DNA of 64,000 nt, taken from the NCBI RefSeq assembly GCF_001586255.1, contig NZ_CP014544.1, forward strand, positions 2,015,501 to 2,079,500. The letters run 5' to 3'. Made by a program: the position numbers and the translations under genes. Below the pieces are notes generated by a model, which searched no databases, was not told the DNA's origin, and saw only the letters and a program-made list of their open reading frames with translations. Below, piece by piece: positions 30,078 through 53,430 of this stretch. Origin of the DNA: Zhongshania aliphaticivorans. Lineage in GTDB: Bacteria; Pseudomonadota; Gammaproteobacteria; Pseudomonadales; Spongiibacteraceae. Position 1 is the stretch's first letter. Every line of letters begins with the position of its first letter.

Positions 30078-30115
30078 AAATCATCTCCAGTATATTTCGT
30101 ACTGTATTACGTATC

Positions 30116-30127
30116 ATGTATATACAT
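30116..30127. promoter_or_regulatory. Palindrome upstream of the KfrA-like gene
   Basis: ATGTATATACAT is a perfect 12-base palindrome 39 bp before the start codon, within AT-rich DNA with related GTAT/ATAC half-sites. It is a possible self-regulatory site. Confidence 0.35.
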
Positions 30128-30167
30128 ACTATATTAAAGCTAGATCTATTCGTATGATAGTGCTTAT

Positions 30168-30202
30168 ATGACATTAAATAAGGGAGACTTATTTAATGTC
30201 AT
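30168..30202. repeat. 15-bp-arm inverted repeat between kfrA-like and recombinase genes
   Basis: ATGACATTAAATAAG and CTTATTTAATGTCAT are perfect complements around the 5-base loop GGAGA. Its right end overlaps the ATG of a short truncated reading frame. It could be a terminator-like hairpin, an operator or a recombination site. Confidence 0.6.
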
Positions 30203-30260
30203 GGCAAAAAAACGTAATCTTGAGGCTCTTTTCAGTACAGAATCGGCGTTGGCTCGGTAA
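30201..30260 (+). pseudogene. Possible truncated start of a lost gene
   Basis: A 19-codon frame encoding MAKKRNLEALFSTESALAR then TAA. The MAKKRNLxxLF start resembles N-termini of ParB-like island proteins, and no homologous continuation follows. It could be the stub of a gene deleted when the recombinase region was joined, or chance. Confidence 0.25.
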
Positions 30261-30339
30261 TCGCGGTGAAGACATGCAGGAGTAGGCCGCCACACGCACG
30301 ACATTTCTCTGGATAAACCGCCACTATATAAGGCACCTA

Positions 30340-31293
30340 ATGACTAACCCCACCGATAGATACATTCATGCCGCGACACGCGAAAACACCCGAAAGAGTT
30401 ACCGCGCAGCAATAGAACACTATGAATCTGTATGGGGTGGATATCTGCCAGCGACGGCAGATAGCATTGCGCAATACCTCGCACACTACGCGCCGACTTT
30501 GGCTATCAACACCCTAAAACTGCGTTTGGCTGGGCTTGCTGCGTGGCACAATGATCAGGGCTTCCCCGACCCCACCAAGTCGCCGCATGTCAAAAAGGTG
30601 CTCAAAGGTATAGCTGAACTTCACCCGCACGCAGAAACACAAGCTAAGCCTCTTCGACTTGAGGAGCTGAATACGGTTGTTTCGTGGTTCGACATGGTAT
30701 TGGCATCAGAGCTATGCACACACCCTCGCCGCCTGACGTTAGTACGTAACAAAGCCTTATTTCTTGTTGGTTTTTGGCGGGCGTTTCGCAGCGATGAATT
30801 AACTCGTATCAACATTGAAAACGTGACCGTGACGCCGGAAAAAGGACTTGAAATTTTTCTTCCTCGTAGCAAAACGGACCGAAACTCACAGGGACGAACC
30901 GTCCGCGTACCGGCATTGCTGCAACTCTGCCCTGTTTCGGCTTACCTAGACTGGGTTAGCGAAGCGCAGTTACGGGAAGGCCCCCTCTTCCCCGGCATCA
31001 ATCGTTGGGGTCACCTCGCAGACAAACCACTTCATCCTGCCAGCGTCATTACAGTTATTAAGCAGAGCTGCAGGCTTGCAGGTATACCCGACTCCGATGA
31101 ATATAGCAGCCATTCATTGCGGCGTGGATTTGCGAGCTGGAGCAATGCTCAGCAGTGGGATATAAAGGCGCTGATGGAGTATGTTGGCTGGAAGGACGTC
31201 AAGACGGCGTTGCGGTATATTGATGCAGATGATCCGTTTTTAAGCCAAGCGAAGGACAATGGGTTGCCACCACTTATTAAAGGACTCGACTAA
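30340..31293 (+). CDS. Tyrosine recombinase (integrase)
   Basis: 317 residues. A SAM-like core-binding domain (about 10-85) and a catalytic domain with Arg150 in WRAFRSDEL, His258 and Arg261 in SHSLRRGFASW, Trp284 in VGWKDVKTALRYID and nucleophile Tyr293. All key residues are present, so it should be active. It may mobilise the island that starts here. The 3' end overlaps the convergent XRE gene by four bases. Confidence 0.88.
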   Translation: MTNPTDRYIHAATRENTRKSYRAAIEHYESVWGGYLPATADSIAQYLAHYAPTLAINTLKLRLAGLAAWHNDQGFPDPTKSPHVKKVLKGIAELHPHAETQAKPLRLEELNTVVSWFDMVLASELCTHPRRLTLVRNKALFLVGFWRAFRSDELTRINIENVTVTPEKGLEIFLPRSKTDRNSQGRTVRVPALLQLCPVSAYLDWVSEAQLREGPLFPGINRWGHLADKPLHPASVITVIKQSCRLAGIPDSDEYSSHSLRRGFASWSNAQQWDIKALMEYVGWKDVKTALRYIDADDPFLSQAKDNGLPPLIKGLD

Positions 31294-34792: not shown

Positions 34793-35263
34793 TCATGCTT
34801 TAGTTAATACTTGCTCGAAGTGATTTTTAACCGTAGCCCAGTCTGGAAAATGTTCCGAGCCAAAGTGAATCAGCTTACCCCCAAACGAATCCTGGCCTTT
34901 ACCGGTGATGTTGTCGTCAATAAGGTAATCGCCGCGATTCAGACCTTTGTGCGGGCTAATAATTAGGTTGTCTACCGCATTCATCCCGAGGTGCTGCTCT
35001 ACCCAAAGCCGCTTTTCGGCATAGCAGTGGGGATTTTTAACTGACGGTGCGGTAAGGACGAATACGGCGGTTTTGGGATGATTGTGAAGCCACAAGTAGG
35101 TTTCGATAGCGCCCTCGATTGGCTCAAGGCTGAGATACATGCTCGGCTGGCTCTGCGGATACTTCAGCTCTGGGTATTTAGCCTGCCACCGCGTAAAGCC
35201 CGCATCGTAGTCGCATAGGACGTGGTCCATATCGACGTAGATAATGGTTTTATCGTCAAACAT
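34793..35263 (-). CDS. 5'-nucleotidase, NT5C type (HAD fold), copy 1
   Basis: 156 residues. HAD motif I is YVDMDHVLCDY, then VFVLTAPSVKNPHCYAEKR and GDYLIDDNITGKG (motif IV acids). NT5C-type enzymes dephosphorylate (deoxy)nucleoside monophosphates. It is 51 bp downstream of the NrtR-type gene, so it may act on NMN or other NAD-related nucleotides; this is inference. A close copy lies at 52930-53430, with roughly four in five residues identical by eye. Confidence 0.8.
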   Translation of the reverse strand: MFDDKTIIYVDMDHVLCDYDAGFTRWQAKYPELKYPQSQPSMYLSLEPIEGAIETYLWLHNHPKTAVFVLTAPSVKNPHCYAEKRLWVEQHLGMNAVDNLIISPHKGLNRGDYLIDDNITGKGQDSFGGKLIHFGSEHFPDWATVKNHFEQVLTKA

Positions 35264-38170: not shown

Positions 38171-38539
38171 CTACGCTTCATCGATCCCTTACCCGTGAGT
38201 GTAGGTTCTGGGCGGTGGCAGTCAGCGCGGTTTTGGTAGGGGCACTAGAGATATGCTTATTTTATCGTTTTACTAGTATAGGGCACTCTTCGGGAAACAT
38301 GGCCCTTTGTCTGGCGTCAACTATCTTGACTGGCGGTCACCCTAATTGTCGCCGAACAGCGGTTGACGCTCGTTGATTACGAACGTCATTCACAAACAAA
38401 AAAAGTTTGTCAAGGTGGCCCTAAATATCTTGGGACGTGTTAATCCTTCAACCACGCTAATATACGAAGAGCCTCCAAAAGAACGAATCAAAAGTGCTCC
38501 CGATAACATCTGAAGGAACACTCGCCCAGCTACCGCTCT
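38171..38539. other. Intergenic region, nothing recognised
   Basis: 369 bases between convergent operons (NAD-kinase-like and DUF6527 genes). No supported ORF, repeat or RNA was seen. Confidence 0.45.
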
Positions 38540-38869
38540 TCAAACCCAGATAACTTTTCCGTTTCGTAACCAAAAATGGGATTTGCACCCGCCGTTGAGC
38601 CAGACGGAAGGGTGCAGCGTGGGTTTCCCCTCCTTACTGATATTGATAGACCAGTGGGGCTTGGCCTCCTCGATCAATAACAACTCTAGCCGTTTGCCAC
38701 AGCCGCAGGGACAATGAAAAGCCACGGCCCAGTCTTCGTTGTCTTCTCTAGCCAGCACCAGATTTCGTCGAGGTAGTTTCTGGGGTGGTGTATCTGCCTC
38801 AACGACGGTGACTCGTCGCCCTGGAAGAAGCCTATCTACCTGTTTTAATATCCAACGGGGCCATTTCAT
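38540..38869 (-). CDS. DUF6527-like small zinc-binding protein
   Basis: 109 residues. A CPCGCGKRLELLL cluster plus a later GGCKSHFWLRNGKVIWV segment suggests a small zinc-ribbon or treble-clef fold. By recall DUF6527 proteins are encoded beside bacterial ubiquitin-like conjugation genes, which is the case here: it overlaps the JAB-E1 gene by four bases (ATGA). It could be a RING-like adaptor or a substrate; this is inference. Confidence 0.65.
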   Translation of the reverse strand: MKWPRWILKQVDRLLPGRRVTVVEADTPPQKLPRRNLVLAREDNEDWAVAFHCPCGCGKRLELLLIEEAKPHWSINISKEGKPTLHPSVWLNGGCKSHFWLRNGKVIWV

Positions 38870-40272
38870 TCGCCCACCTCGCTAACAGCAAAACGCGGCA
38901 TGCCCAGCAGGGGTTCAATTAAACCACGGCCAAGGTGAGGGTTCGGCGCGCAGCTAAAGTCTGTTTCACCCATAAATTCCTCTTCACCTGCGGCCAGTGA
39001 AAACTGGGTGCGGGCCCGTTTGCTATTAGACTCCTGGCGAAAGGGGTATGCCCGCGCAATAAACTCCATGACGCAGTCGCTGGCTGCACGCATATTTAGA
39101 GAGATAACCGATGGCGCTTCTTCGGCGACACCTTTGATGTACCCTTCTGCTACTTGTTCGGCCAACTCTTTTGGGGCCACTTGTTGCAAGTATTCCCGGC
39201 GTAGAGCTTCTGGAGTGTAGACCCCGCGATCCGCCAAGGTGCTGCCACCAGGCTTCACATAGTCCACCCGCCCGCATACATCGCCAACAGCGACTCCACC
39301 TGCACTCTGGCGGGTTGGGATAGTAACGGCCACATCAAATAGTGGCTGCAGAAAGGCTGCAGCAATACGGTCACACACTTGCCGCCCTTCAAAGCTGTCG
39401 ACACAGCAAAATAGCATGTCACCTCCGCCCGCTAGCTCAATGGCCTCGCGGGTAGCAACACTGGCTTTAAGTGTGAGCACTTCGACGTCGTCGCGGTATG
39501 TTGGGATGACCGATGCAAATCTCGCCACTTTGGCTGTACTGTTCCGGGCATCGTCCAATGTGGCGTTAAGGATACGGTTGAGGTTCTTGAATTCAATTTC
39601 ATCAAAATCGATCAAAATCAATCGGCCAAAGCCAAGACGGGCCAGCTGTTCTACCACGATAGACCCGGTACCGGATACCCCAACCACACAAGCAGTGAAG
39701 TGTTTGAGGTGACGCCCCATTTCGGTTGAGAAGGCCATAGGGGTAGGTAGCAAACTACCTTGCTCAGATGCTTGCCAGGTTAGCAACTCATCGCTAGCGA
39801 GGTGCACAGCGCTGACAGGTGTAGTCACCAATTGGCGATCATAGAACCGAGCGCAGATAGCACCGTCCGATGTCATGATGGCCGAACCATGTCGGGTCAA
39901 AGGCGATTCGCTGGCCTCGAATAGCGCGGGCATAACGTCTCGATCACCGTCATCGTCAATGGCTGAGAACGCCAAGAGGCCGCCGGGGTGTGAGTGCATC
40001 AGCACTATCGACAGAGCATGAGCCTCTGCCAGGTCAATGGCCTCCTCGATGACGGTGCCAGGCCAGCAGATGCGATCATGCGAGCGCTCACTACAATCGG
40101 CGTAATCAACCAACAGAATCTGATTGACCACATAGCGATGTGCGGCGCTTTGGGCGCAGAGCACAATAGCAGCGGCCTCCAGGCCGTCGCCGGGGAAAAG
40201 GTGCTCGCGCAGTTTGGCATGATGAGCCTCATTGATCGCCAGTTTGATGGGCTGACTAATGGTTGCGCTCAT
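38866..40272 (-). CDS. JAB isopeptidase fused to ThiF/E1-type activating enzyme
   Basis: 468 residues. N-terminal JAB/Mov34 domain with the JAMM zinc site H93-S-H95 ... S103-A-I-D106 (HSHPGGLLAFSAID); Glu32 is the candidate catalytic acid. The C-terminal ThiF/E1 domain begins near 185: ATP site GVSGTGSIVVEQLARLGFG and IDFDEIEFKNLNR (232-Asn, 233-Arg), then FCCVDSFEGRQVCDRIA. Cys333, Cys400 and Cys441 are candidates for a thioester site. JAB removes, and E1 activates, a ubiquitin-like protein. It is coupled to the multi-Ubl-E2 gene upstream (4-bp overlap). Confidence 0.88.
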   Translation of the reverse strand: MSATISQPIKLAINEAHHAKLREHLFPGDGLEAAAIVLCAQSAAHRYVVNQILLVDYADCSERSHDRICWPGTVIEEAIDLAEAHALSIVLMHSHPGGLLAFSAIDDDGDRDVMPALFEASESPLTRHGSAIMTSDGAICARFYDRQLVTTPVSAVHLASDELLTWQASEQGSLLPTPMAFSTEMGRHLKHFTACVVGVSGTGSIVVEQLARLGFGRLILIDFDEIEFKNLNRILNATLDDARNSTAKVARFASVIPTYRDDVEVLTLKASVATREAIELAGGGDMLFCCVDSFEGRQVCDRIAAAFLQPLFDVAVTIPTRQSAGGVAVGDVCGRVDYVKPGGSTLADRGVYTPEALRREYLQQVAPKELAEQVAEGYIKGVAEEAPSVISLNMRAASDCVMEFIARAYPFRQESNSKRARTQFSLAAGEEEFMGETDFSCAPNPHLGRGLIEPLLGMPRFAVSEVGE

Positions 40273-41435
40273 TTTCCCACCTCCCGAAGCAACGATTCTT
40301 CCACAACAGCCAAGTGCGTTATCACGCTGTCAGTTAAGGGGTTCCATTGTGTGACGCCATTGAGATGGCGACTCCAGCGCTGGTAGACGTTCCCAAGAAT
40401 GTTTTCCCGACTTTCAGTCTGAGCAATGTTGCCACCATTAGCCAACGTCAGGACGGGATGAACAAAGAACATATCGAGCTTTGCATCCGGATAAGCAGTG
40501 GGAATCTCTATAGCAAGATCTACCTGCTCGCAGTTATAACCGCTCGGCAAGGAGTGATTGTGAATGATCAGCCAACGCCGAGCCCCAACCAAGCGGGTCT
40601 CCCAGTCGAGCCCCAAGTGGTTCAAATACGCCACGTCTTGATCCAGCAGAGTAAACTCAAAGGTGGGAGCAACTGCCGCCTCACCATTGTTGATTTCTGC
40701 TGGGGTGAGACGGAGCTTTTCAATGCCCGGTTTCCGCAGGTCGATGACATCGCTCATCTCAATGACCTGCTTTTTCTCACCCTTCACCTTGAGCACCAGA
40801 ATCCAACCCTTATCTGGATTAAACCCGGCCGCCTTAAGTGCATCGCTGGCAACGATCGTCGGTTGTTCAACGCTTACAGTAACGCCCTGCACGTTCAGCT
40901 TCCAGATTTTGCGTTGAGTGTAGAGTTTCTCGAGACCAGGCTCATCCAAATCCACATAGTCCCCGTCGGCAAGCAGCTGATCCGGCTCATTACGACGCTC
41001 CAACCAGATGTCTTGATTCTCAGCAATGTAGCCAACGCGGCGCAGCACATCCTCACAAATATGGGCTTGACCCCAAGGAAAACGCTGTCCGTTTAAGGCG
41101 ACATAGAAGAGGCGATCGCTATCGAAAGCAAAAAACTGCTCAACGCCACGTTGATACACGTCCACTGTGTCATCGAGGTCTACCGCTTCGAGTTCGCCTT
41201 TGTCGTCAAACAGCAACAGCAGGTGATTTTCAACGGGGGTTTTGCCTGCTGCACTCAAAATTTGGCGACCGGTAGGCACCGGATCGTCAATTTCAACCAA
41301 GGTGCCCTGCCCGTTGGGATCAAGCACCTGTACCAGATAGTGCTCCGCAATAGGCAGTGGGCGGCCCTCTTGACGACAAAGGGCTATGTTTTCGCGCTCA
41401 ACACGCGCTTCGTTGGGGGAAGTAACATCGTTCAT
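40269..41435 (-). CDS. Triple ubiquitin-like (multiubiquitin) domains fused to an E2-like domain
   Basis: 388 residues. Three beta-grasp repeats are visible at about 30-105, 108-180 and 182-255; each has a related strand-turn pattern (YLVQVLDPNGQG / LFYVALNGQRFPWG / WKLNVQGVTVSVEQP), a mid helix, and a VDLDxPGxExL-like strand (VDLDEPGLEKLY; IDLRKPGIEKLR). The C-terminal 120 residues are E2-like: LIIHNHSLPSGYNCEQVDLA, IPTAYPDAKLDMFF and a QRWSRH...W segment, as in the Prok-E2_E family by recall. The only Cys in the E2 part is in GYNCEQ, so the catalytic route may differ from canonical E2. It is preceded by a 95-bp gap after the UvrD gene. Confidence 0.85.
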   Translation of the reverse strand: MNDVTSPNEARVERENIALCRQEGRPLPIAEHYLVQVLDPNGQGTLVEIDDPVPTGRQILSAAGKTPVENHLLLLFDDKGELEAVDLDDTVDVYQRGVEQFFAFDSDRLFYVALNGQRFPWGQAHICEDVLRRVGYIAENQDIWLERRNEPDQLLADGDYVDLDEPGLEKLYTQRKIWKLNVQGVTVSVEQPTIVASDALKAAGFNPDKGWILVLKVKGEKKQVIEMSDVIDLRKPGIEKLRLTPAEINNGEAAVAPTFEFTLLDQDVAYLNHLGLDWETRLVGARRWLIIHNHSLPSGYNCEQVDLAIEIPTAYPDAKLDMFFVHPVLTLANGGNIAQTESRENILGNVYQRWSRHLNGVTQWNPLTDSVITHLAVVEESLLREVGK

Positions 41436-41530
41436 AATCGAATAATCTCTTGATGGCTTGCCGCGACATGCGGTTTCTTAGCCGTTCAAAGGGTTAATCG
41501 AAGCGAATCGTGCCGACCGGAAAGCTTAAT

Positions 41531-44500
41531 CTACTTTTTTATACAAATTTTTCCTGCCGGGACTTTGCCACAGATGAAAAAGCTCGGGCAGCGGGGGCAA
41601 GTGCGACTTTCAGGCTTTGCAGGAAAGTGCCCTTGGGCAATAGCGCCCATGGCCGATTGGGCTTTGCTCAGGCGCGCAGATTTTTTGCGGTCGGTCACCG
41701 TGACCTGCTCCTGGGTTTCGCCCGCCAAGTGCACGGCCTCCACTCGAGTGCCATGCCCAAACCGACGTTCTGCTGCCTCCAGCAATAGCGTGTATTCAAT
41801 TCGGTCAAATTCGTCGCTGCTCTTTTTGCCGGATCTGATGCGCCGAATGTTGTACTTGCCGTCTGTATCGAGTGTCATTTCATCGGGTAAAACGCTGATC
41901 TCTCCTTCTGGAAAAGACACCTGCAGTACCTCGGGCTTGACCAGCTGACGCCCCTGGCGAGTCTGGATCAGAAATTGCACCAGGCGCTCCCCAATACGGC
42001 GATAGTCCTCCGCGTAGCCGTGATCCACCGGGCCCCGATTGAACCACGACCGTGTAAATTGAGCCTCCAATTCACCAGCACTTGGCGTGGATTCGCTGTG
42101 CTCCTGTCCCAACCAATCCAGCACCTCGTGCACCGCACTGTGCATTTGCATAAACGCACTCTCGCTACGCTTGCCCGCCAAGGCTAAAGCGTGGGTATAG
42201 AGAAACCGCCTGGGGCAGCGATCATACAAGCTGAGCTGTTGTTCGCTGATCAGCAGTGCTTCTTCATCAAGGCTTAAGACCTCAAGCTCCACTGAGTTAA
42301 GACTGAGCCGAGTCGGACTATTCTGCTGTTGGATAACCGAAGCGATGCGGTCGATGTATTTGGAGGGTTTGCGATTGTTGCCATTGGCTTGTACAGAAGA
42401 GGCGTATAGCAACAGTCCTTCTTGTGCCCGCGAGGTGGCGACAAAGAATTTACACTCCTCCTCTTCTTCATGCCCAGCTGTGATAGCCTCAAGCCCTGTT
42501 AAGCCCTCTGTTCCGTCAATCAGCCCATCGGGGGGCACACAACGCGGCGGCCTGTTGCTACCCGGCAATCCGGTGGCAATCATACCTGGGAGGTGCACCA
42601 CCTTGAACTCCAAACCTTTGCTTGCATGTATGGTCATTAAGCGAACGCCATTGATGCTATGAGCTGCCTGAGGGAGTTGACGCATTTCGCGGTCTTCGGA
42701 GAGCAACACAATACGGCGAATGCGCGACAGCAGTCTATCAATGGGCAAGCCGCTACCATTGATGGAGTTGCGGACAAAGCTCAACAGTTGCCACAAAGCG
42801 ACGCCCTTCATTTGGCTTTGTAGGTCATTGGCCATGGCCGCCTGTCTGGCCCAGCCCAAGCGATCAATGACCAGGCTTGCTAGCACCGGCCAGGGGTTGG
42901 CATTAGTGGGAACATCGCCCAAAACCGCCGACAGGCGTTTGAGGCTTTCGCGGGCTTGTTCATCTAAACCGGGCACCTCATCGATCAGTACTCCCCAACT
43001 CAAGGGGTCGGGATCAGCTTCGCGCAGGTGTTGCTGTAGCGCAGTGATGTGTTCCAAGCGAACTGTGTAGCCGGGAAGTGTCGCCGCCCGCACCAGGCCC
43101 GTAGCACGCCGGTCGGTGACTAACGACAGCAGTGACAACAGATCCTTGATTTCTTCACGTTCAAACAGGCTGCCTAAATACAACACCGGCAGGCCGAGGG
43201 CTTCAAGACTGGCAGCGATCTCGCTCAAGCGGTTGTTGGAAGTACAGAGTATCGCCTGATCTTTGTATTCGACACCCTGACTTTTCTTCTCCATTATCGC
43301 TGCAGCGAGTACGGCAATTTCGTCATCAGGGGTGGTAGCCACACGTAATTCAGGCCGTTTTCCCAATGAGCCATGATGAGCATGGAGCTGCAAAGGCAAA
43401 GCCCCCTCAGAGGCTTTCATGCTCGTCGAAAAGTGTCGGTAGAGATCAACAATTTCGCCCGAAGAGCGGTAATTGATATCCAGCCCTGCTACTTGTGCGC
43501 CGGGAAAGTCCTCAATAAAGCGCTTCATATTGATCGACGAAGCGCCTCGAAAACGGTAGATGGATTGGCGCGAATCTCCAACGACCCAAAGCCGCTTGCC
43601 TTCTCCCGCAATAGCCTTAATCAAGCGCACTGAGGCGCGGTTAACATCCTGGTACTCGTCTACCAAAATGTGTTTGTGGCGTGATGCGAGCAGTTGTTGA
43701 ACTTCTGGCTCTGACTCCACCAAGCGCACAGGTAGCGACACCAGATCGCCGAAATCAACGCTGTCGGTACCTTGCAATACAGTCTCATAGGCTTGATATA
43801 ACTCAGCTACATCAAGGCATTTTTCAGCTCGCTCACGCTGCTTATCAGCATCGTCGCCCAGCGGTAACTCTCGAGAAGCCTCAAGCATAGCCTCTGCCAA
43901 TGCTCGATATTCAGTGGCATTCACAACTTCGTCTTTCGCACGTGAGATAGCCGAAAGCATGTCGCCCAAGTCTAGGGTTGGATCGTAGAGGTTGCGAAAG
44001 TGCTTAAGCGGAAGCCTCGCTATTTCGTCTTCAAGCAGCTCGATAGCTTCGTACCGCGAAATCACTCTGGGGTTTTCGGATAAGCCCAACCTGTCATGAA
44101 AGCGGTGCACCACATCCAGCCCGAAAGAGTGGAAGGTACCCAACCACAAAGTCGCCACCGCCCTGGGGAACTTGGCGGCGATACGCTCGCGCAGCTCGCC
44201 AGCGGCCTTGTTGGAGAAGGTCAACACCAGGATTACCCCAGGATCTACCCCGTCCTCCAGCAAGGACTCAATGCGATGCACCAGAGTGCGGGTTTTACCG
44301 GTGCCCGGCCCTGCTTGAAGTTGGAAGGCACTGCCACGGTGTAAGGCGGCGTTGCGTTGGGAATCATCCAAACCGACCGGTGTTGCTGCGGACTCTGTGC
44401 GCGGTGGCGTAATGGGAGGCAGCAGCAGCGCATCGAGCAACTGCTGTTGAACCACACTCAACGGAGCTTGTAATCGATCAGCGATTGCCTCGGAAGACAG

Positions 44501-44962
44501 CTGTTCGTCGATGTGCCAGCATCTTGCCACACTGCGCGGCAGTAGCAATTCGCGGGCAAAAAGATCCATAACAATCTCGCGCCGTTCGTAGCTGCCATAG
44601 TCAACCACTCGTTCGGCACCCACCGCAGGGGCTTCGGTAGATCGGTCGGGATCAATTTCCTCAGTGAGGTCATCTTGCGTAGCACCTTCCAACTCCACAT
44701 GACCAATTTCATGAGCGATTAGAAAGGCTTTGTCGAAATCACTGCCCACGTTTTCATAGAGGATCATCCCTGCCTGGCTGTCGTAGAGGGCTCTCCCACC
44801 ATTAAGCTGGGAGTCTCCCTGGGCCAGTGGATAAACATCTATTCCGCGCCGCTCTGCCTCATCCGTGACGAAAGACAACAACGCGCTGGTATCACTGCCC
44901 CGAGCACAAGCGGCCTGATGCAGCTTAGCCGCCTGTTGTCGAGCCGCTTCGATGGCATCCAT
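41531..44962 (-). CDS. ImmA/IrrE peptidase - UvrD helicase - PD-(D/E)XK-like fusion
   Basis: 1143 residues in three parts. Residues about 1-170 are an ImmA/IrrE zinc peptidase (H84EIGH88). Residues about 195-850 are a UvrD/PcrA-type SF1 helicase (Walker A AGPGTGKT; HILVDEYQDVNRAS; later LMTIHASKGLEFKVVHLPG). The last 230 residues are a RecB/AddB/Cas4-like nuclease fold with YDRCPRRFLY and a closing CPRCPSFFICGK, a likely iron-sulfur cluster. The motif that should read DxK reads IRRIRSGKK, so nuclease activity may be lost. It is 1 bp from the 202-residue HTH-like gene, which may be its peptidase target. Confidence 0.85.
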   Translation of the reverse strand: MDAIEAARQQAAKLHQAACARGSDTSALLSFVTDEAERRGIDVYPLAQGDSQLNGGRALYDSQAGMILYENVGSDFDKAFLIAHEIGHVELEGATQDDLTEEIDPDRSTEAPAVGAERVVDYGSYERREIVMDLFARELLLPRSVARCWHIDEQLSSEAIADRLQAPLSVVQQQLLDALLLPPITPPRTESAATPVGLDDSQRNAALHRGSAFQLQAGPGTGKTRTLVHRIESLLEDGVDPGVILVLTFSNKAAGELRERIAAKFPRAVATLWLGTFHSFGLDVVHRFHDRLGLSENPRVISRYEAIELLEDEIARLPLKHFRNLYDPTLDLGDMLSAISRAKDEVVNATEYRALAEAMLEASRELPLGDDADKQRERAEKCLDVAELYQAYETVLQGTDSVDFGDLVSLPVRLVESEPEVQQLLASRHKHILVDEYQDVNRASVRLIKAIAGEGKRLWVVGDSRQSIYRFRGASSINMKRFIEDFPGAQVAGLDINYRSSGEIVDLYRHFSTSMKASEGALPLQLHAHHGSLGKRPELRVATTPDDEIAVLAAAIMEKKSQGVEYKDQAILCTSNNRLSEIAASLEALGLPVLYLGSLFEREEIKDLLSLLSLVTDRRATGLVRAATLPGYTVRLEHITALQQHLREADPDPLSWGVLIDEVPGLDEQARESLKRLSAVLGDVPTNANPWPVLASLVIDRLGWARQAAMANDLQSQMKGVALWQLLSFVRNSINGSGLPIDRLLSRIRRIVLLSEDREMRQLPQAAHSINGVRLMTIHASKGLEFKVVHLPGMIATGLPGSNRPPRCVPPDGLIDGTEGLTGLEAITAGHEEEEECKFFVATSRAQEGLLLYASSVQANGNNRKPSKYIDRIASVIQQQNSPTRLSLNSVELEVLSLDEEALLISEQQLSLYDRCPRRFLYTHALALAGKRSESAFMQMHSAVHEVLDWLGQEHSESTPSAGELEAQFTRSWFNRGPVDHGYAEDYRRIGERLVQFLIQTRQGRQLVKPEVLQVSFPEGEISVLPDEMTLDTDGKYNIRRIRSGKKSSDEFDRIEYTLLLEAAERRFGHGTRVEAVHLAGETQEQVTVTDRKKSARLSKAQSAMGAIAQGHFPAKPESRTCPRCPSFFICGKVPAGKICIKK

Positions 44963-44963
44963 A

Positions 44964-45572
44964 TTACTCGTCCTTCATTTCCCTCAACGCCGCTTGTTGT
45001 GCTTCGCTTAATGCAGAACTTGTCAGCGCCTCTTCAAAAGTGATTTTGTCACCCGCCCTAGGCTTCCCCGAAGCCTTATGCCTCAGACCTGAAGCAACAA
45101 CAGGCGGGGCCTCTAAGGCGCTTGTCAGCCCCTCAAGTTGCACTGTCAGTGCCTGTGCAACTGCGGACAAGAATCGCTGGGGAATAGTGGCCACCTGGAT
45201 AGAGCAATCCCGTAAGCGGGATAAGAACAGGCGGTTAACATTCAACTCACTGGCAAGTTCACGAAAACGCTCTTCGCTTAGGTTCGACAGGGGGTTATCC
45301 ATTGAGAGCGAAGCTATCGAGGCGGGATCAGTAGGACTTAGCAAGGATTGAAATTTGGACCAAGCCTGTTTGGACTTGTCGTTTGGAACCTTCTCGGCAG
45401 CCACTTCATCAAACTTCGGAGCCGTAAAAAGTTCAATGGACAGATCAATGAGCGCTTCGCGATACTGGGGGTAGCGCTTTAGATAGCTCGCCAAGGTATC
45501 AGCATTGGGGTTCGATTCTGCTGAGAACGCGTGTAATACGTCTTCTTTTGACGCTTGAGGTGTAGTGTTCAT
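44964..45572 (-). CDS. HTH-like protein, candidate repressor or anti-sigma partner
   Basis: 202 residues. The middle part (about 95-155; NLSEERFRELASELNVNRLF, then LSRLRDCSIQVATIP, then FLSAVAQALTVQLEGL) follows the periodicity of an XRE helix-turn-helix with a weak recognition helix. I do not recognise a named family. It overlaps the sigma-factor gene by four bases and precedes the ImmA-UvrD gene by one base. ImmA-type peptidases cut ImmR-type repressors, so this may be the cleaved regulator; alternatively it binds the sigma factor. Confidence 0.6.
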   Translation of the reverse strand: MNTTPQASKEDVLHAFSAESNPNADTLASYLKRYPQYREALIDLSIELFTAPKFDEVAAEKVPNDKSKQAWSKFQSLLSPTDPASIASLSMDNPLSNLSEERFRELASELNVNRLFLSRLRDCSIQVATIPQRFLSAVAQALTVQLEGLTSALEAPPVVASGLRHKASGKPRAGDKITFEEALTSSALSEAQQAALREMKDE

Positions 45573-46357
45573 TGTAGCTCCTCCGCCTGCAACATGACTC
45601 GCAGTTTTTCGATAGCACGTTTTAACCGGTTACGTACCGTTCTTTCCGTGCACTCTAATGCTTTCGCAATGCTCTCGACTTCCGGGTCTTGTGACTCGAT
45701 CGGCATTCCCTGCCACCGCAACCCAACTGCACGCCGTTCATCCTCCGGTAGTTCATTAATCGCGTCCATTAGCCGCGACCGGAAAGCGATATCGTCAATT
45801 TTTGACGGATTTGGATTGATAAATTCTGCAGCTGCAATGTCAACCTCATGGCTGACTTCCTCCCCGCTGCCGCTTTCCTCCGTTAATGGCCTGGCGTTGA
45901 TCATGGGGTCGGTTTTGCGTGCTGGGCCATATTTTCTCAGTACATCCGTACGCAATTTGCTCAGAGCATCATTAAAATTGACCTCCCAGTAGTACATTTT
46001 GTCCTCTTGTGAGTTTCGATCCTTCGCAATCATTTCCACAATCCGTTCGGAAAGCTCTTCGCGGATTGCCACGGCATGTTCAATCCAGGCCTCAGACACG
46101 ACTTTCCGCAATGCGGCTTCAAGCCGCTCGTGAAAGGTGCAAAAAATCGGCTCTAGGTGCTTTGACCCCAGTTCTAACTCGGTGTGACGCAGAAAGTAGA
46201 TTAACACTTCAAACGGCACAGCCTGCTGAGTGCATGTGAGACGTTCAACCAACTGACCGGGCAGAAGGCCACAAAGTGCGCTAAGCGCCTGCTCAATCTC
46301 GGAGCGCCGCTGGTAGGGTTCACCTTCTTGCGTTGTTTTTTTAAGCGGTATTACCAT
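45569..46357 (-). CDS. Sigma-70/ECF-like RNA polymerase sigma factor
   Basis: 262 residues. The clear part is C-terminal region 4: RLMDAINELPEDERRAVGLR, then VESIAKALECTERTVRNRLK, RAIEKLRVML. The N-terminal 150 residues hold a degenerate region 2 (RHTELELGSKHLEPIFCTFH; YYWEVNFNDALSKLRTDVLR). A free-standing sigma factor at the head of a defence-like operon could direct its transcription on demand. It is the first gene of the ubiquitin-like/helicase cluster. Confidence 0.75.
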   Translation of the reverse strand: MVIPLKKTTQEGEPYQRRSEIEQALSALCGLLPGQLVERLTCTQQAVPFEVLIYFLRHTELELGSKHLEPIFCTFHERLEAALRKVVSEAWIEHAVAIREELSERIVEMIAKDRNSQEDKMYYWEVNFNDALSKLRTDVLRKYGPARKTDPMINARPLTEESGSGEEVSHEVDIAAAEFINPNPSKIDDIAFRSRLMDAINELPEDERRAVGLRWQGMPIESQDPEVESIAKALECTERTVRNRLKRAIEKLRVMLQAEELQ

Positions 46358-46676: not shown

Positions 46677-48008
46677 CTAATATCCAAAATCCTTAACGTC
46701 AGCGAGAAGATCTTTGACTTGGCGTCCAACCCGCTTATGAAATTCAAATTCAATTTCGTCATCTTCCAGCTTAGATACATCCATACCGAAATAATCAACC
46801 AACACCTCTTTCATCATATCGAGGTCATAATCATCAAAATTAGGGATGTAGTTGGTCTCATACCTGCGATGTGTTAACTCCTTAAAAGCCCTGACAAATT
46901 TCTTCGGCTTCACGTTTATCTTAAAGCGCTTACAAAGTTTACTGATATAATGATCAAGCACATGCAGGAGAGCCTCGTCATTGATTTCCGCAAAAAAGAA
47001 CAGCCAACCCTTGCTCTTATTTTCAAAAACACAGCCAGTTATGCGCAGGTTTAATCGCCACAGTAGAAACTGTTCGTTCTTCTTTTTGGAGTGTGCGTGT
47101 GTTGTAAAAATTGCAACTAGTGATGATTTTAGGTTTTCTACCGTTCCCTGCCTAGCAGAAACCACCGAATTGTCGAATTGATACCCTAGGTAATCAAATC
47201 TATCGGCAATTGCGCCCATGCTCGATTTTGTCGGCATTGTGATTGGGTCATGAACTTTTAGCCCAATTTTGGCAAATCGCTTGATTACCTTATCTGCAAT
47301 ATCCTCCGTTTCCTTCCGATTGCAGAAAATAAGCACATCATCTACGTATCGATAACAGCTAACATCAGCCAATGAGTCCAAAAAACGATCAATATTTATT
47401 AAATAGATTGCCGCCAAAATGTTTGATATCGCCAGCCCCTGCGGAACACCGTGATCCACGAGGGTATCCGTAGATCTGGATTTACTCACAGTAGGAACAG
47501 TTATGGCATTGAATATAAAATCGAGAATTTCCGTGTTCTTTACTTTCTTTCGAAGCCTGCTATGCAGTTCATCATGCCGCACAGATGGATAGAAATTGGC
47601 AATATCAAGCTTTATATAACTATCATACTTCCCCGACCCTACATCTGACTTGACGCGCTTAACTATATTCTGAGGAAGCTCGAAACTTATAGTTTTTCTA
47701 TAATGGGCGCCTAAAAAGTCACATAGAGCGCGAAGTGCGATGCGATCACGAACAGTCGGAATCGAAATCTCACGGGGCACTTTATTACGGCCCTTACTGA
47801 CCAGCTTAAGCTTGTACTTAGTAAATTTATATGTTCCTGCGTTAGCCTTCCTTGATAGTATTTCAACTTGATTATTCAACTGCTTCCTAAATGCATATTG
47901 ATCAAGATTGTCTAGCCCTGTTGCTCCAGAATAAACAATATGATCGTCAAAAATTTTTTCTAAGTTCTTTTTTGAGAAGTGCCGTTCAAAAAGCCTCTTT
48001 ACAGTCAA
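46677..48008 (-). CDS. Reverse transcriptase of defence type, SLATT-associated
   Basis: About 443 residues. RT palm motifs: SYIKLDIANFYPSV (Asp135), HGVPQGLAISNILAAIYLI, RYVDDVLIF (Tyr221-Val-Asp-Asp224) and FDYLGYQF. The C-terminal 190 residues have no named domain. The catalytic Asp residues are intact. I chose TTG 48008: GGAG lies eight bases before and TTG overlaps the SLATT stop (TTGA), implying coupled translation; longer readings run inside the SLATT gene. It is not a group II intron RT (no maturase or endonuclease domains). SLATT-RT pairs form a known defence-RT architecture. Confidence 0.85.
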   Translation of the reverse strand: MTVKRLFERHFSKKNLEKIFDDHIVYSGATGLDNLDQYAFRKQLNNQVEILSRKANAGTYKFTKYKLKLVSKGRNKVPREISIPTVRDRIALRALCDFLGAHYRKTISFELPQNIVKRVKSDVGSGKYDSYIKLDIANFYPSVRHDELHSRLRKKVKNTEILDFIFNAITVPTVSKSRSTDTLVDHGVPQGLAISNILAAIYLINIDRFLDSLADVSCYRYVDDVLIFCNRKETEDIADKVIKRFAKIGLKVHDPITMPTKSSMGAIADRFDYLGYQFDNSVVSARQGTVENLKSSLVAIFTTHAHSKKKNEQFLLWRLNLRITGCVFENKSKGWLFFFAEINDEALLHVLDHYISKLCKRFKINVKPKKFVRAFKELTHRRYETNYIPNFDDYDLDMMKEVLVDYFGMDVSKLEDDEIEFEFHKRVGRQVKDLLADVKDFGY

Positions 48009-48595
48009 GCCATACACTCCAGCAAAATGAAAACTAACACAGGAAGCAGATAAAAGAAGGCCATCATCAGGCAGCGCTTTGTTATGTGCCAGGCGGTGCA
48101 TATCCATATGTATGGCGTCGGCTTTTTGTCTAAGTTTTTTCGATTTTCCTTTGGAGTAGTTAGGTATGCCTCACATTGGGCAAGATAATAATCAATGGTC
48201 AAGTGATTTTCACAAACACCCAGAATTTGGTCGTATTCGGCAGACAATTCTTCAAGAGTTACACAGGGCGTCTTGCCTGCTTCAAATTCCCTACAACGCT
48301 GGTATACGTCATTGAGGGTTTCATAGCACTCTTTGATCAATCCGGCTCGCTGTTTAAACGAGAGTCCATTAATAAACCCGGACATGCACAGGACCAGAAC
48401 AGAATAGACAACCCATGCGATTCCCGACATATCGCCATCAGATGAACTATATTTGAGGTAATAAACAGATGCTGCTACTCCGGCAAAAGAATACCAAAGC
48501 AATACAACCTGAGCCTGAAAAGCATTAGACACGAGACGCTTCTCTGCCTGTATTTTTGATTTTCTTGTCCACCAAATATTATCGGAAAATGCCAT
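48005..48595 (-). CDS. SLATT-family transmembrane effector
   Basis: 196 residues. An amphipathic N-terminus, two close helices (about 29-48 and 56-77), a soluble middle with Cys/Glu-rich helices (CYETLNDVYQRCREFEAG), and a hydrophobic C-terminus (MMAFFYLLPVLVFILLECMA). SLATT proteins are predicted pore-forming effectors; by recall the SLATT_5 subfamily neighbours reverse transcriptases. Here it is coupled to the RT gene. It probably kills or halts the cell when the RT senses infection. Confidence 0.8.
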   Translation of the reverse strand: MAFSDNIWWTRKSKIQAEKRLVSNAFQAQVVLLWYSFAGVAASVYYLKYSSSDGDMSGIAWVVYSVLVLCMSGFINGLSFKQRAGLIKECYETLNDVYQRCREFEAGKTPCVTLEELSAEYDQILGVCENHLTIDYYLAQCEAYLTTPKENRKNLDKKPTPYIWICTAWHITKRCLMMAFFYLLPVLVFILLECMA

Positions 48596-48615: not shown

Positions 48616-48735
48616 TGTCCTGAGGTGTCAGTAAGTTACATAGAGTTAACACCCGTTGCCGGGCAAGCCCGAAGGCTAAGAGACAAGCTCTTCAATATTA
48701 GTTGCACTCACAAGTGAGTGGCCTGCCGAAACAGG
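48616..48735 (-). ncRNA. Structured RNA of the SLATT-RT system, 3' part (IS-split)
   Basis: On the minus strand, five adjacent hairpins occur: 48721-48735 (GCCTG stem, broken at its last pair by the IS), 48705-48720 (CACTCA stem), 48678-48692 (AAGAG), 48666-48677 (AGCC-TTCG-GGCT, UUCG loop) and 48652-48663 (CCCG-GCAA-CGGG, GNRA loop). A final ACACCTCAGGACA at 48628-48616 pairs perfectly over 13 bp with TGTCCTGAGGTGT at 51406-51394. The RNA would end about 20 bases before the SLATT ATG. Without the IS the element is about 134 nt. Confidence 0.75.
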
Positions 48736-48815
48736 TGCGTATTCCGCTGAACCTGATCAGTCGTACCGCTTGAACGTGATCACTTAATTCACCTCATGCA
48801 TCATGTGCCGTCTTT

Positions 48816-49574
48816 TTACTTTAAGTGATCATCTTCAGTCAATGTAGTCATCAGTTTTCGCATGGATTCCCCCTTCAAATTGATCTTGTGAGCGTTGTGT
48901 AAAAGCCGATCCAAGATGGCGTCAGCCAACGTTGGATCATTGATAAAGTCATGCCAGTTTTCCACCGGAAGCTGGCTCGTTACTATCGTTGTTTTTTTGT
49001 TGTGCCGATCCTCCATGATTTCCAGCAAGTCGTTCTTTTGCACTTGCGTCAGCGGCTCTAAACCCCAGTCGTCAATGATCAGTACGTCTGCTTTGGCGAT
49101 TTGCGCGAGGAGCTTGAGATAGCTGCCATCACCGTGGGCGATGGTAAGCTGCTCAAACAGCCGAGAGGCACGGAAGTACCGAGTGGGATGACCCTGTACG
49201 CAAGCATGGTGGCCGAGAGCGCAGGCAAGATAGGTTTTGCCGCAGCCCGTCGGGCCGGTCATCACTAAGTTATGCCCTTTGCTAATCCAATGATTGCTTT
49301 GCAGAGCGGCAACGGTGCTTGGTTTAAGTCCGCGCGGATGGCTGTAGTCAACGTCCGCCAATCTTGCCATTTCTTTAAGGCGTGCAGCGCTGAGTAAGCG
49401 CTGCAATCGTTTGTCGTTCCGGTAGGTGATTTCCTGCTCAATGGCTAAGCCGATACGCTCTGCAAAGCCAAGCTCGTCGTAGGTGTTGGGCTGGCGGAAC
49501 TGCGCTTCCAGTGCGTCCGCTAAGCCAGTGAGTCGAAGTTGCCGGAGTTGTTGTACGCTTTGTATTTCTAGCAT
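48816..49574 (-). CDS. istB: IS21-family helper ATPase IstB
   Basis: 252 residues. AAA+/DnaC-like ATPase with Walker A GPTGCGKTYLACALG, Walker B VLIIDDWGLEPL and a sensor segment TTIVTSQLPVENWH. It assists IstA in target selection. It lies downstream of istA in the same orientation and has full family length. Confidence 0.93.
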   Translation of the reverse strand: MLEIQSVQQLRQLRLTGLADALEAQFRQPNTYDELGFAERIGLAIEQEITYRNDKRLQRLLSAARLKEMARLADVDYSHPRGLKPSTVAALQSNHWISKGHNLVMTGPTGCGKTYLACALGHHACVQGHPTRYFRASRLFEQLTIAHGDGSYLKLLAQIAKADVLIIDDWGLEPLTQVQKNDLLEIMEDRHNKKTTIVTSQLPVENWHDFINDPTLADAILDRLLHNAHKINLKGESMRKLMTTLTEDDHLK

Positions 49575-49615
49575 GTGCTTTCCTTGGGTTGGGTGGTTTG
49601 GTTGATGATGCTTGT

Positions 49616-51166
49616 TTAGTGGTAGTAATTGGCGCCACGGACATTGCGATGAGACTCACTTGCCTGCGCTTGCGGTTCTAGCGGCAGGGCCAGTTGATCC
49701 ATATTGCTCTGCAGGATCGATTTGATATTGCTTAGGCGTAGGGCTTTGATGTGTTGTGCACGTAAGCAAGCCGCCTCTAGGCGTGCCGGTGTGTATTGTT
49801 TGGCGAGATTCAGTAACCCTAAGCAGGCGCGATACGCCTGCTCTGGTACCTGCTTTCGTTGCAGGAACAGCTCAACCATCGCGTGTGTTTCGGGGCCTAT
49901 CGTTCCCGCCCACGAGAGCAGTCGCTTCGGCGTCCACTGCTGATGCCGCTGGTGTGCTTCAGGCATGTGCTGCGTATTGGTGGTAAACCCACCTTGACGC
50001 TGGCTACGTGCATGACGTGCGACCTGCTGATCCTTAAAGAAGATAGCAACACCGTCGCGGCTGGCTTGGATCTCCACTTGCGTCTTAACCAGATGATGAG
50101 GAACGGAGTAATAGTGCTTGTCGAACTCGACGTGGTAATCAATATTGACCCGTGCCAGCTTGAACTCGAGGTATTCATAGCGCGTCGCTGGCAGTGGTTT
50201 AAGCGCCGGTTTGTCCAGCATCTCAAACTGGCTTAAGCGGCAACCCGGAAGCTTTTTGAAGGGCCGTTGATTGAGGTCTTCCAGTAAGCCCTTAATTGCA
50301 AGGTTAAGTTCCGCCAGCGTAAAGAAGGTCTGGTGGCGTAACTTCGCTAATATCCACCGCTGCACAATCAGCACCGCGTTTTCGGCCTTCGCCTTGTCTT
50401 TTGGTTTGAGCGGTCGCGCAGGAATGATCGCGGTTCGATAGTGTGAGGCCATATGTTGATAACTGGCATTGATGGTTGGTTCGTAACGGCAAGGTTTGCT
50501 CACTGCGCTGCGGAGCTGATCAGGCACAATGATCTCCGGCACGCCGCCAAAGAACTCGAAGGCCTTGACGTGGGCATCAATCCAATCCGCTTTGCGTTGC
50601 GTCCAGCTGGCGGTGGCAAAGGTGTAATTGCTGGCACCGAGCGTCGCGACAAAGATTTCAGCGTTGCGGATCTCGCCGGTATCTGGGTTAACAATCGGCA
50701 CTGTCGCGCCACTGTAATCCACAAATAGTTTTTCACCGGCGAGGTGGATCTGCCGCATAGAGCGTTTTTGTTGGGCGCGCCATTCGCGGTAATACCCGCA
50801 ATACTGCGAGTACTGATAGCCCGCATCCCCATAAGCCTGTTTGTATTCCTCCCACAGCAGCTGTTTGGTGACGCTTTTGCGCTTTAGCTCCAGATGTATG
50901 GCGGCGCAATCAGGCATAACGCGGCCATGTCGCGCACTCAGCTGGGGTGAAGGAAACAGCAGTTGCTCAAGATCGTTATCTGACAGCTCGGCGGGCAGGG
51001 GCCAGCAAAGCCCCAGCGCAGAGGCGCGTTTGCCGTAGGTTGATACGGTGCCCACGCCAATGCCCAGGCTGCGCGCTATCTGGCGATGACTTAGCTTTGC
51101 CTCAAGTTTAAGGCGGAGAATTTCTTTGATATGTCGCATTGCTAATCTCGTGTTTGGCATCGTCAT
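49616..51166 (-). CDS. istA: IS21-family transposase IstA
   Basis: 516 residues. N-terminal helix-turn-helix (LSHRQIARSLGIGVGTVSTY), then a DDE integrase core (HLAGEKLFVDYSGATVPIV; GGVPEIIVPDQLRSAV; AKAENAV with the Glu), then a beta-barrel region. It catalyses IS transposition. Full length, no frameshift seen. Confidence 0.93.
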   Translation of the reverse strand: MTMPNTRLAMRHIKEILRLKLEAKLSHRQIARSLGIGVGTVSTYGKRASALGLCWPLPAELSDNDLEQLLFPSPQLSARHGRVMPDCAAIHLELKRKSVTKQLLWEEYKQAYGDAGYQYSQYCGYYREWRAQQKRSMRQIHLAGEKLFVDYSGATVPIVNPDTGEIRNAEIFVATLGASNYTFATASWTQRKADWIDAHVKAFEFFGGVPEIIVPDQLRSAVSKPCRYEPTINASYQHMASHYRTAIIPARPLKPKDKAKAENAVLIVQRWILAKLRHQTFFTLAELNLAIKGLLEDLNQRPFKKLPGCRLSQFEMLDKPALKPLPATRYEYLEFKLARVNIDYHVEFDKHYYSVPHHLVKTQVEIQASRDGVAIFFKDQQVARHARSQRQGGFTTNTQHMPEAHQRHQQWTPKRLLSWAGTIGPETHAMVELFLQRKQVPEQAYRACLGLLNLAKQYTPARLEAACLRAQHIKALRLSNIKSILQSNMDQLALPLEPQAQASESHRNVRGANYYH

Positions 51167-51387
51167 CCCGGCGCAAAAGCGGCAAGGATAACGTGCAGTA
51201 CAGGATGAATTTCAATGCATGAGGTGGTGTGGAAATTGATGGTGATCAGTCATTGCGACAACGTGAACACCCGTTGCGATAAGTCCCGTAAAGTGATCAT
51301 TTTAAATCGCAATGAGTGATCACGTTCGTTCGCAACAGGTGATCACGTTGGATCGCAGGCGGTGATCAGGTTGGGTCGGAATACGCA

Positions 51388-51406
51388 ACAGGCACACCTC
51401 AGGACA
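51388..51406 (-). ncRNA. Structured RNA of the SLATT-RT system, 5' part (IS-split)
   Basis: After removal of the IS, this end joins the block at 48735. Minus-strand TGTCCTGAGGTGT (51406-51394) pairs with ACACCTCAGGACA (48628-48616), and C51393 completes the GCCTG/CAGGC hairpin. This shows that IS21 landed inside the RNA element. Confidence 0.7.
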
Positions 51407-51500: not shown

Positions 51501-52235
51501 TCAATGAAAATCAACCCCGTCCAAAAAATGCCCGCCATCGGCGGTGAGCACATTGGTGTAAATCTCGGTACTTTCGATCGATTTATGCCCCAAGAGCTGA
51601 CTGACAACCTTCAGCGGCCGTCCGTGCAGCAATAGATGGATCGCGAAGCTGTGCCGAAAGGTATGACAGGTAATATTGATCGGCGCGCCCCCTACTCTAT
51701 CCACCAGATCATGGATGTGCCGGTTCACTGTCTGGCGCGCCATGGTGAAGATCCGCTCGTCCTTCCTAAAATGGCCCGCGTACAGGTAGCTCTGTATGCG
51801 ATCTTGAAGCATCGGGTCAATGATGGGCACGGCCCGCTTTGGGCTACGGGCGAGTTGTACGTTAGTCGGTCTCCCCGGCCGCTGTTTAAGTGTGCGCAGC
51901 ACCACCATGAAATCGTAGCCGTCATCAATGAAGTGGCTCGGTGTGAGGGCCAGAACCTCAGAAATCCGAGCGCCGGCAGTCCACATAAGGTCAAGAATCA
52001 GGCGGTAAGTTGGGTGTTTTTCGGCGTCGAGAAGGCCCAGGACTTCGGGCTTGAGTAAGTACGTGGGCATCGCGTCCACGGTATCCAACACGAGTTCGCG
52101 CTTGGCCATGAGGCGCTGCCAGTCGATTTGCACATGCTGAATCGGGAACGTATCGAGGCGCAGCTCTTTCGGGGTGAAGCGTCGTTTTGGCCGGGATGCG
52201 GGAAATGCCCCGCGGCTGTCCTGATTCCGTACCAT
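51501..52235 (-). CDS. Tyrosine recombinase
   Basis: 244 residues, shorter than most integrases and with a reduced core-binding domain. Catalytic residues: Arg90 in TAGARISEVLAL, His191 and Arg194 in CHTFRHSFAIH, His217 in LLGHKSIESTEIYTNV and Tyr226. It is directly upstream of the SLATT-RT RNA region and may have brought that system in. No attC cassettes are seen, so it is not an integron. Confidence 0.85.
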   Translation of the reverse strand: MVRNQDSRGAFPASRPKRRFTPKELRLDTFPIQHVQIDWQRLMAKRELVLDTVDAMPTYLLKPEVLGLLDAEKHPTYRLILDLMWTAGARISEVLALTPSHFIDDGYDFMVVLRTLKQRPGRPTNVQLARSPKRAVPIIDPMLQDRIQSYLYAGHFRKDERIFTMARQTVNRHIHDLVDRVGGAPINITCHTFRHSFAIHLLLHGRPLKVVSQLLGHKSIESTEIYTNVLTADGGHFLDGVDFH

Positions 52236-52929: not shown

Positions 52930-53430
52930 TTACAGATTGTTTTTGCGGTGAATTGACCTCCAGTCTTTAGGCAAAATTTGTTCAAAGTAATCTCTAACAG
53001 CAATCCAATCTGGAAAATATTCCGAGCCAAAATGAGTTAGCTTCCCCTCAAACAAGTCCTGCCCCTTACCTGCGATATTATCATCAATAAGGTAATCACC
53101 GCGATTCAGGCCTTTGTGCGAACTAATAATTAAGTTGTGTGCCGCATCCATACCGAGATACTGCTCTACCCAAACCCGCTTTTCGGCATAGCAGTGGGGA
53201 TTTTTAACCGACGGCGCAGTGAGGATAAATACAGCTGTCTTGGGATGATTGTGGAGCCACAAGTAGGTGTCGATTGCGCCGTCCATTGGCTTAAGGCTGA
53301 GATACATCCCCGGACGGCTCTGCGGGTACTTCATCTCTGGATATTTGGCCTGCCACTGCGCAAAACCGGCCTTGTAGTCACAAAGAACATGGTCCATATC
53401 GACGTAGATTATCGTCTTGCCATCGAACAT
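52930..53430 (-). CDS. 5'-nucleotidase, NT5C type (HAD fold), copy 2
   Basis: 166 residues. It shares motifs YVDMDHVLCDY, LTAPSVKNPHCYAEKR and GDYLIDDNIAGKG with the copy at 34793-35263. It is the longer by an extra C-terminal tail (KDWRSIHRKNNL). The catalytic acids are intact, so both copies may work. Its upstream DNA still carries a remnant of the nrtR 3' end, showing it was copied as part of a larger block. Confidence 0.8.
   Translation of the reverse strand: MFDGKTIIYVDMDHVLCDYKAGFAQWQAKYPEMKYPQSRPGMYLSLKPMDGAIDTYLWLHNHPKTAVFILTAPSVKNPHCYAEKRVWVEQYLGMDAAHNLIISSHKGLNRGDYLIDDNIAGKGQDLFEGKLTHFGSEYFPDWIAVRDYFEQILPKDWRSIHRKNNL

Follow-up and report, generated by a model that had tools for sequence, protein, structure and literature searches.

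Among the antiphage systems that rely on a reverse transcriptase (RT), the closest to the locus considered here is DRT10, which combines an RT of class UG17 with a SLATT protein (Tang et al. 2025, preprint, PMC12632851). According to the text of that preprint, RNA immunoprecipitation sequencing (RIP-seq) of the Escherichia coli homologues recovered an RT-bound noncoding RNA (ncRNA) of 137 nt located upstream of SLATT; the RT binds this ncRNA and primes DNA on its own C-terminal serine (tyrosine being likely in Eco1), copies the A-B part of an A-B-A′ template loop located after a stable hairpin, and repeats the cycle once the new DNA has re-annealed at A′. The product is a single-stranded tandem-repeat complementary DNA (cDNA), which the authors propose to control the SLATT effector. 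DRT9 is stated there to have a similar ncRNA fold and protein-primed synthesis, but to use a poly-U template and to make a homopolymer (PMC12632851). The present analysis concerns a window of 64,000 nt from Zhongshania aliphaticivorans (NZ_CP014544.1, forward-strand positions 2,015,501 to 2,079,500; genome 4.2 Mb), where a SLATT-RT pair is preceded by a structured RNA that is split by an insertion sequence (IS) of the IS21 family. Very probably, this element is the template ncRNA of a DRT10 (UG17) system; an IS21 that multiplied recently has split it close to the 5′ end and has probably switched the system off. DRT10 as a kind is already described; the novelty lies in the member with its predicted repeat, in naturally broken alleles and, possibly, in a cassette.

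The RT, its SLATT partner and the divided RNA

Assignment of the RT to RT_UG17 by PADLOC is clear-cut, the next family scoring 1.5e-36 and Drt9 1.2e-14, as against 6.6e-164 for UG17. None of the NCBIfam models exceeds its cut-off, the best being those for group II RT and Drt3a, both far under their thresholds. The active site reads RYVDD (YxDD type) and the C terminus KDFGY, so that the final residue is a tyrosine; to judge from the alignment, translation likely starts at a TTG (48008) that overlaps the stop codon of SLATT. Since the partner scores as RTasSLATT, the pair matches the definition of DRT10 in PMC12632851, and the DRT10 label that the initial annotation had given is borne out. Also shared with the published system, as far as the preprint's text describes it, are the length and position of the ncRNA, a closing stem that holds small hairpins, a template loop after a stable hairpin with, by prediction, an A-B-A′ pattern, and a C-terminal tyrosine or serine; different are the interruption by IS21 and the number of small hairpins, which is five in the joined fold and four in the preprint's text.

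Joining the flanks without the IS (48616-48735 and 51393-51406) yields an RNA of 134 nt on the minus strand, whose two ends (51394-51406 and 48616-48628) pair without mismatch as a closing stem of 13 bp and whose 3′ end is 20 nt away from the SLATT ATG at 48595; the length, the stem and the distance had all been anticipated in the initial annotation, as had the position of the IS and its ACAGG duplication, which are exact to the base. The fold proposed there as a check gives −57.7 kcal/mol for the joined RNA (z −6.29), a value that none of 200 shuffled sequences equalled. It comprises five hairpins plus a 4-bp stem within the template loop; the predicted minimum of five hairpins and the single GNRA loop (GCAA) are present, but there are two UUCG loops instead of the one claimed. 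The 120-nt piece that remains on the SLATT side, folded alone, reaches −36.4 (z −1.73; 12 of 200 shuffles equal) in an arrangement that differs from the joined fold. The features are collected in Table 1.

Table 1. Features of the DRT10 locus, the IS21 insertion and the adjoining recombinase genes (window coordinates)
Feature	Position	Strand	Basis
SLATT-proximal 3′ 120 nt of the ncRNA: hairpins, template loop, 3′ arm of closing stem	48616..48735	-	Match to model R1; covariation
5′ end of the ncRNA beyond the IS: 5′ arm of closing stem (51394-51406) and next base	51393..51406	-	Sequence; joined fold; intact equivalents in L046, L051
Template loop GTTAACTCTATGTAACTTACTG	48629..48650	-	Sequence; rule from PMC12632851
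Hairpin with GCAA loop, beside template loop	48651..48664	-	Consensus fold; covariation (helix 5); joined fold
Hairpin AGCC-UUCG-GGCU	48666..48677	-	Joined fold; not part of R1
Hairpin AAGAG-CUUGU-CUCUU	48678..48692	-	Covariation (helix 4); joined fold
Hairpin CACUCA-CUUG-UGAGUG, followed by conserved single-stranded CAACUAAU	48705..48720	-	Covariation (helix 3), 100% of cells paired
First hairpin, UUCG loop	48721..48735	-	Sequence; R1 match; joined fold
SLATT_5 protein (RTasSLATT), 196 aa, open frame	48005..48595	-	Pfam 2.7e-25; PADLOC 6.5e-58; NCBIfam SLATT_5 2.1e-42
UG17 reverse transcriptase, 443 aa	46677..48008	-	PADLOC RT_UG17 6.6e-164; alignment
IS21-family insertion sequence, 2,652 bp	48736..51387	-	istA/istB, 11-bp terminal inverted repeats, 5-bp duplication; same strand as SLATT-RT
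istB helper ATPase	48816..49574	-	NCBIfam IS21_help_AAA 3.5e-78
istA transposase	49616..51166	-	NCBIfam transpos_IS21 2.7e-91
Target-site duplication ACAGG, left copy	48731..48735	.	Sequence
Target-site duplication ACAGG, right copy	51388..51392	.	Sequence
int1, tyrosine recombinase, first gene of the recurring cassette	51501..52235	-	Pfam Phage_integrase; recurrence
int2 remnant, 62 aa, 66% identical to the opposed second recombinase	38328..38510	+	tblastn

The IS has the istA/istB genes, terminal inverted repeats (perfect over their 11 bp) and 5-bp target duplication of IS21 family members in general, and its target alone sets the window copy apart. Three full copies, including that of the window, occur in the genome and are 100% identical, in addition to a fragment of 422 bp at 96%; because these full copies are identical and are flanked by separate 5-bp duplications (GCGTG and ACCCA for the other two), the insertion is regarded as recent, and the same judgement in the initial annotation was a fair one. 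Within the ncRNA the IS sits in the 5′ arm of the first hairpin, where the target duplication restores CCUGU, so that despite the insertion the greater part of the hairpin may still be able to pair.

Conservation of the RNA and of its template loop

Relatives were collected with the RT as query, which gave 80 loci in genome contigs (the best 80 of 269) and 79 loci in viral contigs (from the best 80 of 112), the last 36 of them weakly related; six plasmid loci were added. The window RT by itself gave no confirmed match in viral contigs, and the window genes had no match in E. coli DNA; the E. coli DRT10 loci were reached with L064 and L149 as queries. From 23 upstream regions chosen by hand, the window excluded, a covariance model (R1) was built by way of alignment and consensus fold, and was run on 87 loci and on the first 43 of the 79 viral ones.

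R1 recognizes the window at 48616-48748 on the minus strand with 96.7 bits (E 4.6e-23), the first 13 nt of the match falling in the IS end; when the split RNA is aligned to the model, four of the six closing-stem pairs come out as non-standard, in the part replaced by the IS. The search of the 64 kb (E cut-off 1) reported no further match, and neither did that of the whole genome (E cut-off 10), in which 150 of 419 first-look candidates were scored. R1 matches 30 loci with 67 bits or more (23/87 and, among the viral ones, 7/43), once per locus and just upstream of SLATT; 23 of these are the members of the model, which match by construction, and the other seven are mostly close relatives of members. 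Related SLATT-RT loci, then, do carry a matching structure upstream, which the initial annotation had proposed to look for by covariance search, and its claim that the element is the cognate RNA of the RT gains support from the match of a model built without the window.

In an alignment of 26 sources hand-picked from the 30 strong loci (A3), 96.1% of cells are paired and 19 of 24 pairs changed on both sides (138 cells), counts that lean toward the model to which the alignment was fitted; the covariation score is 0.639, a value that none of 500 shuffles reached (0.268), and slid controls give 0.060-0.144. A plain MAFFT alignment (A2; 23 sequences hand-picked among the closer loci, with near-duplicates, L054 and distant groups excluded) has both-side changes likewise in 19 of the 24 predicted pairs. 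Because of this covariation in relatives and the match by the window-free model, the structure has support beyond the folding of a single sequence; the structured RNA is real. At the position of the AGCC-UUCG-GGCU hairpin, which lies outside R1, many relatives also fold hairpins, as inspection of single folds indicates. R1 misses distant loci (L208 and L209 are undetected, and from L067 on it exceeds 30 bits in L104 and L119 only), and therefore describes one sub-group. The expected closing stem is present in 87 of 102 distinct rows by a criterion without shuffle control; the 15 rows lacking it are the window, the interrupted locus L054 (see below) and, for the remainder, distant loci, apparently shifted starts or unclassified rows.

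The template loop directly follows the GCAA hairpin (48664-48651), spanning 48650-48629, and contains a predicted A-B-A′ pattern of TAACT (48648-48644), CTATG (48643-48639) and TAACT (48638-48634), from which a cDNA unit of 10 nt, CATAGAGTTA, is predicted. L049, a relative in which the ncRNA is naturally intact, shares this predicted template. A-A′ repeats of at least 4 nt occur in the loops of 17 of 23 distinct relatives, with 7.9 expected from shuffles; the other six loops lack an A of this length, and in L046 the script chose a repeat other than TAAC. The E. coli locus L209, reached by DNA similarity, serves as an outside check: upstream of its SLATT gene, a hairpin precedes an unpaired loop that contains the published Eco3 template CAATGATTC with CAAT after it (Eco3 cDNA motif from PMC12632851). 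Lying 20 nt ahead of the SLATT start and on the same strand, the element might instead be a leader that acts in cis on the SLATT-RT operon, as an attenuator or a riboswitch; this is very unlikely, as the RIP-seq data for the E. coli homologues place an RT-bound, cDNA-templating ncRNA at the same site (PMC12632851), and in the alignment of relatives the frame is kept but the loop that separates the closing stem from the last hairpin varies. An Rfam scan of the window at gathering scores had no match, which bears neither way on the choice between leader and template.

Probable effect of the insertion

In its uninterrupted form the template RNA would direct synthesis of a repeat of 10 nt, (CATAGAGTTA)n, with the C-terminal tyrosine of the RT as primer. 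The IS has stranded the 5′ arm of the closing stem, which now lies 2.65 kb away from the remainder of the ncRNA; with the native promoter presumably beyond the IS, the RNA would misfold or would no longer be driven from its own promoter, and little or no defence would be left, even with open SLATT and RT frames. The DRT10 system of the window is probably inactive because the IS takes away this arm of the stem. Either disablement or displacement of the promoter, both of which had been suggested in the initial annotation, fits the anatomy of the locus, the second on the assumption that the promoter lies beyond the IS. As to the published system, deletion of the ncRNA abolished defence (PMC12632851).

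Several points weigh against this interpretation. The A-B-A′ pattern of the window by itself is not significant (shuffle p 0.067), such single-loop tests being weak. Scrambling of stem-loop 5 (SL5) was alone in fully eliminating the repeat products, other scrambles having lowered them (PMC12632851); because the SL5-equivalent hairpin and the template are untouched in the window, residual activity is possible. Read-through expression is possible too, because istAB is transcribed toward the ncRNA and SLATT. A scan for promoter consensus found one site where 2.2 are expected in shuffles and thus singled out neither an outward-facing nor a native promoter, a result that is weak either way. Alternatively, the system might still work, with read-through from istAB, or another promoter, yielding a 5′-truncated RNA that suffices for some repeat synthesis and defence: the template loop, the adjacent hairpin and the open SLATT and RT frames all lie intact on the SLATT side of the IS, most of the first hairpin is kept, and the IS genes share the orientation of the system. 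We consider this unlikely, though the least unlikely of the alternatives, as the closing stem is gone, the truncated RNA prefers a different fold, and stem-loop scrambles severely diminished defence (PMC12632851); an inactive system remains the preferred reading.

A second interrupted ncRNA is found in a Bathymodiolus gill symbiont (L054:1-2250), where the SLATT and RT frames are likewise open. An rve-type transposon, which inspection suggests to be IS3-like and which appears to contain an IS1-type transposase gene, takes the place of the 5′ part of this ncRNA. R1 scores 25.6 bits there. This case is less complete than that of the window, since the missing 5′ half was not found in the genome of L054, where other R1 matches are weak and a 22-nt pattern had no match with up to three mismatches; the contig begins at about the IS end. 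With the window, two of the 32 loci of the sub-group (30 uninterrupted, the window and L054; near-duplicates kept) thus have a transposon within the ncRNA. None of the literature matches listed names a transposon-split DRT10 ncRNA in its title or abstract opening, and the main text of the DRT10 preprint (PMC12632851) contains neither “transpos” nor “insertion sequence.”

A possible recombinase cassette and the wider neighbourhood

DRT10 was found by DNA search in two of 57 genomes of the genus and order, that of the window and G408. Upstream of the ncRNA, on the same strand, lies the tyrosine recombinase gene int1, for which the nearest NCBIfam models are XerA, XerD and XerC, all under cut-off. 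It has 18 matches in 14 of the 57 genomes, 14 of them longer than 600 bp (12 genomes, two with two each); besides the window, int1 recurs in L205/L206, L224/L235, L237, L239, L241, L242, L243, L245 and L246. A query extended by 108 bases beyond the int1 stop shows where DNA homology breaks off: in G020 it reaches 34 bases past the stop, whereas in the remaining 12 of the 13 other loci the limit falls in a range from 4 bases short of the stop to 6 bases past it; what follows varies between related genomes. An opposed second recombinase gene, int2, ends the segment in seven of the 14 (G004, G011, G013, G016, G020, G407 and the second copy of G000), the match in G011 lacking the first 17 residues and the int1 of that genome being frameshifted. 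Remnants of int2 are present in three (the window, G001, G021), and none was found in four (G009, G010 and the two of G012), of which G009 and one G012 locus reach the contig end.

The cargo recognized by PADLOC comprises an Avs3a-like protein in the second copy of G000, GajA and GajB in G407 and G021, Drt3b and Drt3a in G011, TIR/pAgo plus GajA and GajB in G016, GajA with a 198-aa part of GajB in G004, a weakly matched LmuB-like protein in G001 and, in G020, E1-E2/JAB, next to which lie an MBL-type protein with a weak match and an unmatched third protein that looks like a patatin. By inspection, a CusCBA-like efflux set (G013), glycosyltransferase-like genes (G009) and an oxidoreductase-like gene (G010) are carried as well, which counts against a pure defence role. 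Across the relatives, then, the contents are DRT10, DRT3, Gabija, Avs3-like, E1-E2/JAB with neighbours, TIR/pAgo with Gabija and at least one metal-efflux set. The DRT3 cassette has a further recombinase of 342 aa on both sides, in opposite orientation (L205:13595-14620, L206:1215-2237), the second copy being 83% identical.

Each end of the cassette also has a palindromic site. The left one, TTTGCACC...GGTGCA, lies 125-127 bp upstream of int1 in seven of eight elements examined (unseen in G407); the right one, AATCCGTAATAATGATATTTTAACGGATT, lies just upstream of int2 in six of seven (unseen in G011), and the two differ from one another. Homology at the right end halts at the site in most pairs, G016 and G020 sharing about 770 bp further. 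No empty site of the second copy, and hence neither excision nor insertion, was seen in the 18 genomes searched; apart from the two sides themselves in the genome of the window, its joined flanks match no more than a portion of one side, in G001. These sites, and the end of the recombinase gene 94 bp upstream of the ncRNA element, raise the question of whether the inverted repeats of the latter are a DNA recombination site of this enzyme and not an RNA, all the more as recombinase genes occur near other DRT10 loci (L039, about 355 bp from SLATT; L207; L209). Such a role is extremely improbable: the cassette sites differ from the element in sequence and in place (the left one some 126 bp ahead of int1, the right one immediately before int2), only one of the 30 strong loci has a match to int1, and a weak one (L039, E 0.001), deletion of the recombinase was without effect on immunity (PMC12632851), and covariation that includes G-U pairs fits RNA.

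Tyrosine recombinases with defence cargo are known from the Gamma-mobile-trio (GMT) elements; int1 reaches 24.2 bits against the GmtY model, far below its curated cut-off of 340, and the cassette of the window type differs in having one recombinase gene per end. The recombinase gene of the window belongs to this recurring cassette, whereas the E. coli DRT10 loci examined sit among genes annotated as prophage-type. The titles and abstract openings of the literature matches listed describe no such cassette, most subscription journals lying outside the search. On these genomic comparisons we suggest, tentatively and with some doubt, that DRT10 may be one occupant of an undescribed mobile defence cassette, in which whole systems bracketed by int1 and int2 would be exchanged in the genus and its relatives.

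Two similar NT5C-like nucleotidase genes bracket the DRT10 segment (52930-53430 by Pfam, 34793-35263 by inspection), and in G016 and G020 an NT5C-like sequence seems, by inspection, to follow int2. Downstream of the RT, a minus-strand run of genes (38866-46357) encodes a sigma-region-4 protein, a 202-aa protein without assigned family, a fused M78 peptidase-UvrD helicase-PDDEXK protein, a protein with Multi_ubiq and Prok-E2_E, and one with JAB and ThiF (E1-like), which looks like a ubiquitin-like conjugation operon. Farther on, a KfrA_N plasmid-type DNA-binding protein adjoins another tyrosine recombinase (29034-31293), which suggests a plasmid-derived island. In the relatives L046 and L049, a type I restriction specificity gene (hsdS) seems, by resemblance, to end directly upstream of the ncRNA.

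The window adds to DRT10 a member with a precise cDNA prediction that is open to testing, and its transposon-broken defence ncRNA had been recognized in the initial annotation from the sequence by itself. Whether SLATT is harmful once its cDNA is missing is left open in the text of PMC12632851, and natural alleles with a broken ncRNA and open SLATT and RT frames, as in the window and in L054, bear on this question of SLATT toxicity. The recombinase-bracketed cassette, if mobile, would be a simple route for bacteria to swap whole antiphage systems.

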